Assembly (NCBI RefSeq): GCF_006547065.1
Contig: NZ_CP041243.1
Coordinates: 1,565,001 to 1,629,000 of the forward strand
Reading direction: 5' to 3'
DNA from: Brevundimonas sp. M20
GTDB lineage: Bacteria; Pseudomonadota; Alphaproteobacteria; Caulobacterales; Caulobacteraceae
DNA: 64,000 nt
Shown: positions 56,468-61,830 of the stretch, one piece after another
How positions within the stretch are numbered: the stretch's first letter is position 1
Layout of the letters: each line of letters starts with the position of its first letter
Translations under genes and position numbers: made by a program
The notes under the pieces: generated by a model
The model's input: the letters and a program-made list of their open reading frames with translations, nothing else
Told to the model about the DNA's origin: nothing
Database searches by the model: none

Positions 56468-56468
<1 letters not shown>
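56013..56468 (-). CDS. DUF3224-family protein
   Basis: A 151-residue beta-rich protein with a short hydrophobic N-terminus that may be a signal peptide (LASILAAVSLAIAPQEAP). The DUF3224 pattern is ASGTFTVSITPVPP, LSKTFHGGLTGTGEGEMLGS, YVAMERVRGALDGHEGTFLLVHRG and LEGLVGVFHLTI. Function unknown. The ATG at 56468 overlaps the dnaE stop (TGATG); a GTG one codon earlier is equally possible. It converges without spacer with the S41-like gene. Confidence 0.8.
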
Positions 56469-59965
<3,497 letters not shown>

Positions 59966-60089
59966 CCGTCCATGGTGAACCGAGTCTCACATCCTGGTCG
60001 CCGGAAACACCGGAAAGCGACGCGGGGCGGATGTGACCGGGGATGGCCTGTGGACCGGCGCCGGGCGGACCTCGTCGCGCCGGGCGGAT

Positions 60090-60116
60090 GTGCACTCAAT
60101 TATTTTTTGAGTGCAC
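60090..60116. promoter_or_regulatory. Perfect 10-bp inverted repeat upstream of dnaE
   Basis: GTGCACTCAA (60090-60099) and TTGAGTGCAC (60107-60116) around a 7-base T-rich loop. It lies 125-150 bases before the dnaE start and 18 bases after the stop of the small membrane peptide gene. It may be the terminator of the short gene or an operator; no T-run lies beyond the stem on the minus strand. Confidence 0.6.
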
Positions 60117-60133
60117 TTTAGTGGCCTTTTCGA

Positions 60134-60229
60134 TCAGGCGGCGGGGAGCAGCAGGACCGCCTGCCAGACCAGCAGCACGAAACCGGCGCACGACGCCAAT
60201 GACAGACACTCCCGAACCCAACGCGCCAT
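60134..60229 (-). CDS. 31-residue membrane peptide under LexA control, SidA-like candidate
   Basis: Frame of 31 codons from ATG 60229 to TGA 60134-60136. The peptide begins MARWVRECLSLA, then a hydrophobic helix of about 18 residues (SCAGFVLLVWQAVLLLPA), with a basic/acidic head (RWVRE) toward the cytoplasm. The ribosome binding site GGGAGG (60235-60240) lies 5 bases before the ATG. A -35 TTGACG (60283-60288), 17-base spacer and -10 TAGAAC (60260-60265) lie upstream, overlapped by two LexA boxes. Known: in Caulobacter a 29-residue inner-membrane peptide, SidA, is SOS-induced and blocks division through FtsW/FtsN. Identity with SidA is inferred from size, topology and control, not from alignment. 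Confidence 0.7.
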   Translation of the reverse strand: MARWVRECLSLASCAGFVLLVWQAVLLLPAA

Positions 60230-60248
60230 GACGGCCTCCCGGATATAT

Positions 60249-60281
60249 GTTCTTGTTGTGTTCTATGTTCTTGTTATGTTC
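60249..60281 (-). promoter_or_regulatory. Two tandem LexA (SOS) boxes with promoter
   Basis: GTTC-N7-GTTC occurs at 60249-60263 and again at 60267-60281, the alphaproteobacterial LexA box form (GAAC-N7-GAAC on the minus strand). The boxes cover the -10 (60260-60265) and the spacer to -35 TTGACG (60283-60288), exactly where repression would be tight. The two boxes are 18-base direct repeats with few differences. Expected to control the 31-residue peptide. Confidence 0.85.
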
Positions 60282-60295
60282 ACGTCAAGGGGTCG

Positions 60296-61117
60296 TCAGT
60301 TCCGATTGTTCCCGAAGGCGCCACGCGTGAGCAGGATAGTCTTCCAAAAACCCTCGCGATCCAGAATCGTCTGATCAGGCGTGGCGACCGGGCGGTGCTC
60401 GAGAAGGGCGAACCGGAAAGCCTTGCGTACATAGTCGAGGTTCGGGTTCGTCACGAGTTGGCGAAGTTCCGCGTTGTTGCCGTGCCCGGTTGCGGCGTAT
60501 TCGCACCACCGCGACCAGACACCGCCTTGCCCATACGCCGAGCCGACATAGCGTTTCCCCGTCAGAACGTCGGAGATCAGGTAGATGCCCTTGATGCTGC
60601 TGAGGGCCGCCATCCAATCAGCCCGTCCTGTGCGCGCCAGATTTTCAAGTTCGGCGAAAGACAGGTCGATACCGTCGAAACCCGGGAATGCGCGACCGCT
60701 GTAGGGCTCTGCCAGCACCTCAGACACCTGCATGAGCGGATAGTGGTTTTCAAAGTTCAACCGGACAGAACGGTCTCGGTAAGGATGTCTGATCTTCAAT
60801 CGGCCGATGAATGCGGATCCCTCGGCGGAGCGGGAGACCACATACTGATCAGCCTTGCGGTCAAGAACATCGAAGATGCCCGTGAATAGCCAGATGTCGG
60901 GCTCATGATAGAAGCGAGCGAGCGAGAAGATGCGTGGGCGATTGAACTCGTCCCGAGCTGGTCTGTATTCCTGCCATGTCTGATAATCCGCCGGGCTGTT
61001 CACCCACACGTCCAGCGGCTCATGCTGCCGGTTCCACCGCGAGAAGTGGATCTTGAAGGTGGCCGGCGCCGCCAGCGGCCAGATGTCAGACAGAAGGATG
61101 GGCGCCGAGACGCCCAT
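60296..61117 (-). CDS. GIY-YIG nuclease-domain protein
   Basis: A 273-residue protein. The C-terminal third holds a GIY-YIG domain: KGIYLISDVLTGKRYVGSAYG near residue 180, then GVWSRWCEYAATGHGNNAEL and later FRFALLEHRPVATPDQTILDREGFWKTIL, with the catalytic-site Glu in DREGFWK. The first 170 residues are of unknown fold (WEYR/FHEPDIWLF). This architecture is found in stand-alone, often patchily distributed proteins. The ATG at 61117 overlaps the lolD stop (TGATG). AT content is higher than in lolD or dnaE. Confidence 0.75.
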   Translation of the reverse strand: MGVSAPILLSDIWPLAAPATFKIHFSRWNRQHEPLDVWVNSPADYQTWQEYRPARDEFNRPRIFSLARFYHEPDIWLFTGIFDVLDRKADQYVVSRSAEGSAFIGRLKIRHPYRDRSVRLNFENHYPLMQVSEVLAEPYSGRAFPGFDGIDLSFAELENLARTGRADWMAALSSIKGIYLISDVLTGKRYVGSAYGQGGVWSRWCEYAATGHGNNAELRQLVTNPNLDYVRKAFRFALLEHRPVATPDQTILDREGFWKTILLTRGAFGNNRN

Positions 61118-61830
61118 CAATAAGCGTGGGCTTCCGCCGGACGCTCTTCCAGGTGCCCGTCCTTGATGGCGAAGACGCGGTCCATGTGGCCGGCCAGTTC
61201 CATGTTGTGGGTGGCGATCAGGGCGGCGACGCCGGTGGATTTCACCACGTCGTGCAGGGCCTCGAACACGGTCTGGCTGGTGGCCGGGTCGAGGTTGCCG
61301 GTCGGCTCGTCGGCCAGAAGCAGGCGCGGACGGTTGGCCAGGGCGCGGGCCACGGCGACGCGCTGACGCTCGCCGCCCGACATTTGTGACGGCTGGTGGG
61401 TCAGGCGGTCGCCGAGGCCGAGGGCGGTCAGAAGCTCCTCGGCGCGGGCGCGGGCGTCGGCCTGTTTCCAGCCGGCGATGCGCAGCGGCAGGGCCACGTT
61501 ATCGCGGGCGTCGAACTCGGGCAGCAGGTGGTGGAACTGATAGACGAAGCCGATGCGGTCCAGACGGATGTGGGTCCGCTGGCGGTCGCTGAGGGCGGCC
61601 ACGGCTTCCCCGTCGATCTTCACCTCGCCCTCGGTCGGATGCTCCAGCAGGCCCGCGGCGTGCAGGAGGCTGGACTTGCCCGAGCCGGAGGGGCCGATCA
61701 GGCCGACGATCTCGCCGGGCATGATGTCGAGATCGACGCCGCGCAGGACGGTCAGGCCGCCGGCCGCGGTGTCGTAGGTGCGGGTCAGGCCGCGCACCGA
61801 AAGGACGGGAGCCACGGTCGTCTTACTCAT
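61117..61830 (-). CDS. lolD: Lipoprotein-releasing ABC transporter ATPase LolD
   Basis: A 237-residue ATPase. Walker A is GLIGPSGSGKSSLLHAAG, the signature QMSGGERQRVAVARAL and Walker B LLLADEPTGNLDPATS. The neighbouring permease confirms a LolD role: it powers release of lipoproteins from the inner membrane. It overlaps lolC by 8 bases. The start is ATG at 61830. Confidence 0.95.
   Translation of the reverse strand: MSKTTVAPVLSVRGLTRTYDTAAGGLTVLRGVDLDIMPGEIVGLIGPSGSGKSSLLHAAGLLEHPTEGEVKIDGEAVAALSDRQRTHIRLDRIGFVYQFHHLLPEFDARDNVALPLRIAGWKQADARARAEELLTALGLGDRLTHQPSQMSGGERQRVAVARALANRPRLLLADEPTGNLDPATSQTVFEALHDVVKSTGVAALIATHNMELAGHMDRVFAIKDGHLEERPAEAHAY

Follow-up and report, generated by a model that had tools for sequence, protein, structure and literature searches.

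The 64,000-nucleotide stretch of the Brevundimonas sp. M20 chromosome analysed here (the window) encodes, just upstream of dnaE, a 31-residue membrane peptide that is very probably, as judged from sequence, an orthologue of Caulobacter SidA. The best explanation of the locus as a whole, to which we give a probability of roughly 0.87, is that it holds sidA as found in a Brevundimonas-like bacterium of the Caulobacteraceae, the product of which would be a LexA-repressed brake on the FtsW/I/N complex. SidA belongs to those SOS division inhibitors whose reported target is the septal wall-synthesis complex and not FtsZ. Since SidA itself is already known, the added value of this work lies in a family-wide map of sidA, a gap in its annotation and a conserved paired operator; the family-wide occurrence of paired, predicted LexA boxes is what appears to be new.

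Table 1. Features of the sidA locus and its surroundings (window coordinates).
Feature	Position	Strand	Remarks
sidA coding sequence, 31 residues (MARWVRECLSLASCAGFVLLVWQAVLLLPAA)	60134..60229	-	ATG at 60229, stop ends at 60134; probable orthologue of Caulobacter SidA
Ribosome-binding site GGGAGG	60235..60240	-	five bases before the ATG; read from sequence
Gene-proximal LexA box (predicted)	60249..60263	-	on the gene strand GAAC-N7-GAAC; shares bases with the -10 element
-10 element TAGAAC	60260..60265	-	last four bases are a LexA half-site
Gene-distal LexA box (predicted)	60267..60281	-	GAAC-N7-GAAC on the gene strand; within the promoter spacer
-35 element TTGACG	60283..60288	-	17-base spacer to the -10 element; read from sequence and promoter comparison
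dnaE, replicative DNA polymerase III alpha	56468..59965	-	NF004226, 1428.8 bits (cut-off 1002); marks the sidA locus in the family
Inverted repeat, perfect, 10 bp	60090..60116		GTGCACTCAA-N7-TTGAGTGCAC; between sidA and dnaE
274-codon frame	60296..61120	-	TTG start; between lolD and the sidA promoter
lolD-type ABC ATPase	61117..61830	-	upstream neighbour; best match TIGR02211, 260.7 bits, below the cut-off of 307.75

The start codon, the ribosome-binding site, the promoter TTGACG-17-TAGAAC and the two GTTC-N7-GTTC boxes that an earlier note had read from this DNA were all recovered at the same positions (Table 1). The gene-proximal box spans four of the six bases of the -10 element and eleven bases downstream of it. 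The note's description of a short, single membrane helix with a charged head is borne out as well, the Kyte-Doolittle hydropathy over residues 10-28 being 2.09, compared with 2.08 for the Caulobacter vibrioides peptide. A sigma-70 scan of positions 59900-60400, which uses an E. coli-type consensus, listed no promoter, and a terminator scan of the same region listed none.

The earlier note had left two options, a Brevundimonas SidA or an independent equivalent. The first is favoured, because the locus upstream of dnaE is the same as in named C. vibrioides, intermediate homologues occur throughout the family and the profiles match each other. Pairwise BLASTP of the window peptide against the C. 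vibrioides peptide gave no alignment at E <=100, and profile comparison was used instead; the proposed alignment with Caulobacter SidA, for which C. vibrioides served here, thus succeeded between profiles and failed between single sequences. In hhalign, a profile of 24 chosen own-genus peptides matched one of 10 Caulobacter peptides at 98% (E 1.9e-13, 28 columns). An HMM built from Caulobacter only ranked the frame first of the 1400 frames of the window (E 1.3e-4, the next being 3.3), and none of 20000 residue shuffles of the peptide reached its score. The same HMM scored 43 own-genus peptides between 4.0 and 35.0 (median 21.4), so that the weakest of them lie near noise. A DNA pattern scan returned 12 stretches, including C. 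vibrioides OR37 and DSM 9893; the DSM 9893 record contains one of the loci compared (L063, within L151), with the peptide upstream of the dnaE start and on one strand with it. SidA of C. crescentus/vibrioides and the window peptide have in common a single helix of 28-31 residues, an R-x-x-R-E/D head, a LexA-box promoter and the position upstream of dnaE. They differ in length (29 versus 31 residues), in the core, which is GFVWMMCT (F-V-W-M-M-C) in Caulobacter and GFVLLVWQ (F-V-L-L-V-W) in the window, and in the boxes, two perfect ones 18 bases apart in the window against one exact and two one-mismatch boxes in DSM 9893.

This orthology by position and profile also bears on whether the peptide might be a membrane toxin induced in the SOS response, like TisB or DinQ, depolarising the membrane and not acting on the divisome. 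TisB acts on the membrane itself and has an antisense RNA. DinQ, likewise reported to act on the membrane and to have an antisense RNA, is a toxic single-helix SOS peptide (PMC3567139). Both E. coli peptides, compared here by description, share with ours the size class, the single tiny helix and LexA control; given the orthology to SidA, we nevertheless regard a toxin of this kind as quite improbable.

The only model that the window peptide matches is NF033228, the NCBIfam model for SidA, with 16.0 bits against a cut-off of 35. This model would not name the peptide, which is therefore not filed under NF033228 and is called an orthologue by locus and profile only, whereas the C. vibrioides DSM 9893 peptide passes with 69.9 bits. 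The earlier suggestion that the peptide is too short for standard annotation does not hold: a model of just 29 positions exists, and it is divergence that keeps the peptide below the cut-off. In the genome-wide scan the best G000 match to the model lies elsewhere, not at sidA. The cut-off is passed in 87 of 149 genomes of the family, but in just 1 of 24 of the genus itself (G185, 36.4 bits), which amounts to an annotation gap. A literature search on SidA and Brevundimonas, which did not cover the 2011 SidA paper, found only work on HigX.

A protein search covered 101 genomes, 61 of them from the genus itself, and 60 of these 61 have a related frame, with a best E of <=0.0057 and no internal stops; the sole genome without a match, G025, is 70% complete. 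For the whole family, the N-terminus of DnaE was used as a probe, giving matches in 143 of 149 genomes and none in six, and the DNA upstream was examined for 110 of the 143 (30 loci from the search and 80 fetched). At 108 of the 110 Caulobacteraceae loci, and in 19 of 21 genera, this DNA holds a SidA-type frame oriented like dnaE, as scored by an HMM whose 20 seed peptides come nearly all from these same loci. As read by the script, 104 of the 108 peptides have 28-31 residues; the four others are due to start-codon picking. At L125 and L129 the start was placed too far downstream, and the frames of L066 and L072 were shortened manually so as to begin at the conserved start codon. The lowest HMM scores, with E down to only 1.6e-4, belong to genus g30, in whose peptides (L126 and L136 among them) HN (LHN, IHN or VHN) replaces the R-E/D head; the promoters of L126 and L136 have three boxes each. 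SidA was not found upstream of dnaE at L140 (genus g32) and L123 (genus g33), the single locus examined in each genus, and neither genus gave a match above the NF033228 cut-off; sidA has probably been lost in both.

Among 200 genomes of the order, of which those lacking a match are listed in part, 41 of 42 matches belong to the same family, and a weak match in G337 (E 0.004), inside a 260-residue frame, was taken as chance. The 289 genomes of the class gave only three members of the genus and one weak match, of 16 residues in G387, which was likewise taken as chance. With the window peptide as sole query, tblastn found no match at E 1 in phages and plasmids, a set from which near-identical records are possibly absent. 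SidA therefore looks like a Caulobacteraceae gene, since the searches of the order, the class, and phages and plasmids gave matches only within the family, apart from the chance ones. Second copies were also seen. A Caulobacter genome of genus g38 has another SidA-like frame of 37 residues (L211, G121:C3:313600-316700; E 2.4e-9), on a contig different from that of dnaE and with no LexA box apparent within the preceding 90 bases. L212 (G005:C128), from an assembly that is 66% complete, is likewise an additional SidA; it is diverged, carries a pair of one-mismatch boxes of its own (GAAC...CAAC twice, 18 apart) and is either a true paralogue or a contaminant.

Pooling 822 non-independent own-genus pairs over codons 1-28 gives a pN/pS of 0.37 in the sidA frame, versus 0.98 after a shift of one base and 2.62 after a shift of two. 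In the comparison with the closest relative, G058, the same codons show five synonymous and two nonsynonymous differences. The frame is open in all of 43 own-genus genomes, the +1 frame in 9 and the +2 frame in 41; because of this last count, openness alone says little. The substitution pattern indicates that the sidA frame is under purifying selection as a protein. Among 29 aligned peptides V18 never varies and at least 90% retain M1 and F17, and within the genus R3, S10, S13, C14, G16 and W22 are conserved in addition.

Such selection at the amino-acid level, acting on a membrane helix, speaks against a LexA-controlled leader peptide that would regulate dnaE through translation or read-through and so couple the polymerase level to DNA damage. 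The constancy with which sidA stays beside dnaE on one strand, at 108 of the 110 loci, which span 19 of the 21 genera, would fit such a leader; yet the gap between sidA and the beginning of the dnaE match ranges from about -2 to 295 bases, the homology is to SidA, a trans-acting inhibitor, and the word dnaE is absent from the main text of one Caulobacter SOS regulon paper, so that we hold this explanation to be very improbable. That the frame, with only 31 codons in GC-rich DNA, arose by chance beside a genuine LexA-controlled dnaE promoter is hardly credible, being already contradicted by its presence in 60 of 61 own-genus genomes, by the codon-level constraint and by the homology across genera.

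If the peptide is SidA, its promoter should be under LexA control. Single GTTC-N7-GTTC boxes are not beyond chance in the 64 kb (4, against a shuffled mean of 1.72, with four or more in 13 of 100 shuffles); an exact pair 18 bases apart is unique within the window. The consensus reported for Caulobacter LexA is (T/A)TGTTC-N6-TGTTC (PMC13384398), and both boxes fit WTGTTC-N6-TGTTC, a pattern that has seven sites in the 3.3-Mb genome, two of them the sidA pair, and none in the reversed-pattern control. Among the other sites, one adjoins ssb, another a radical-SAM gene of DNA repair type (545.1 bits against a cut-off of 343.5) and a third a weak match to imuA (27.4 bits against a cut-off of 150); the remaining two lie by an extensin-like gene and in a stretch without an assigned gene. 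The exact-box search covered 100 of its 116 sites. The genome has a lexA gene (181.2 bits, cut-off 110.95), directly upstream of which lies a GTTC-N7-GTTC box. The gene-distal box agrees in every letter with the 15-mer that PMC12700426 gives for two SOS genes of C. crescentus. A LexA operator is thus predicted in the sidA promoter.

The double box reaches further than the earlier note supposed and is no Brevundimonas speciality. The comparison that the note proposed, of the same locus upstream of dnaE in other Caulobacterales, found both the frame and the paired boxes conserved, not absent. Pairs 15-26 bases apart in which neither box has more than one mismatch are present in 124 of 129 promoters (43 from the genus and 86 others; mean 0.1 in shuffles that preserve base composition only) and in 18 of the 19 genera in which sidA was found. 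Within the genus, two exact boxes occur in 23 of 43 promoters and two boxes with at most one mismatch each in 42; these 43 are the promoters with loci given, from 72 own-genus genomes found, and for that reason favour close relatives. Among seven further, more diverged own-genus promoters, six have the pair, again with no more than one mismatch in either box, and the seventh, that of G024, has only one box. An alignment on the pair took in 41 own-genus promoters and excluded those of G198 and G232, whose boxes have a spacing other than 18. All 41 have GAAC as the first half-site; the second reads GAAC in 23, CAAC in 13, GAAT in 4 and AAAC in 1, the third, which is part of the -10 element, GAAC in 40, with TAGAAC likewise in 40. 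For the fourth, 33 promoters have GAAC and 8 have CAAC. In the genus, the -10 hexamer would thus double as half of a LexA site. The 22 loci of genus g38, which holds the named Caulobacter records, have no exact pair, and all have a pair at up to one mismatch per box, with three or more boxes in 10; one-mismatch sites may not all bind LexA.

In a literature search we found no paper on tandem LexA boxes in alphaproteobacteria. According to PMC12700426, about 97% of Caulobacter SOS promoters have one box, sidA is an early SOS gene with reporter expression higher than that of uvrA, and box properties do not predict the timing of induction. The tighter repression that the earlier note expected of dual boxes is therefore something that we infer; box properties failed to predict timing in Caulobacter. 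At what we would call even odds, the sidA promoter is an ancestral LexA double lock conserved in the Caulobacteraceae, with sites mostly 16-18 apart within the -35/-10 region, which would set the division brake apart, keep an inhibitor that is harmful when leaky silent yet early-firing as soon as LexA declines, and be tuned by half-site variants such as CAAC and GAAT.

The surroundings of the promoter and of the gene show two further features. The 274-codon frame has a weak match to the group I intron endonuclease model TIGR01453 (16.5 bits, cut-off 56.05) and no Pfam match, matches only loci of its own genome among those compared, and does not occur between lolD and sidA in G058, a close relative; it is apparently a lineage-specific insertion abutting the sidA promoter. 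The inverted repeat, at which no T-run terminator was found, has four copies in the genome with near-identical loops and does not occur within 87 bases downstream of sidA in any of five relatives compared; it is possibly an operator or a small repeat element.

The sequence itself speaks for the gene with its ribosome-binding site, the predicted operator and promoter, the conservation and the orthology; induction, topology, the FtsW target and division arrest are drawn by analogy with Caulobacter SidA. In undamaged cells, LexA on both boxes would block RNA polymerase at the -35/-10 region. RecA filaments formed upon damage would trigger self-cleavage of LexA, the promoter would open and the 31-residue peptide would be made. 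It would then insert in the inner membrane with its positive head in the cytoplasm and hold the FtsW/I/N septal wall-synthesis complex inactive until the damage is repaired. In Caulobacter, LexA cleavage is reported to release sidA, and SidA to interact with FtsW and keep FtsW/I/N inactive (PMC4211646). Deleting sidA from a Caulobacter lexA mutant is reported to result in a loss of filamentation (PMC12700426). AlphaFold models place SidA on TM7 of FtsW with low confidence (PMC13396833). For the FtsW suppressor positions A31, F145 and A246 named in PMC4211646, no numbering offset within +/-25 brings A, F and A to these places in C. vibrioides FtsW.

Other small membrane proteins are known to stop division, and we liken them to SidA by description. 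DidA of C. crescentus is also a small membrane division inhibitor acting on FtsW/I/N, but it is reported to have 71 residues, to be SOS-independent and to bind FtsN (PMC4211646). YneA, SosA and ChiZ of Gram-positive bacteria and mycobacteria are likewise damage-induced membrane proteins that stop late division and are reported or predicted to bind FtsW; they differ in having other extracellular parts, LysM in the case of YneA and ChiZ (PMC13396833).

The presence of SidA in 19 of the 21 Caulobacteraceae genera examined provides an alignment of diverged natural variants, each of which can be tested against its own FtsW, and the probable losses in genera g32 and g33 offer natural material for asking how division is checked in these genera. 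The conserved paired operator makes the link between operator architecture and the leakiness of a harmful gene directly testable. If the double lock is true, sidA would stand out against the SOS promoters of Caulobacter, roughly 97% of which are reported to have one box.
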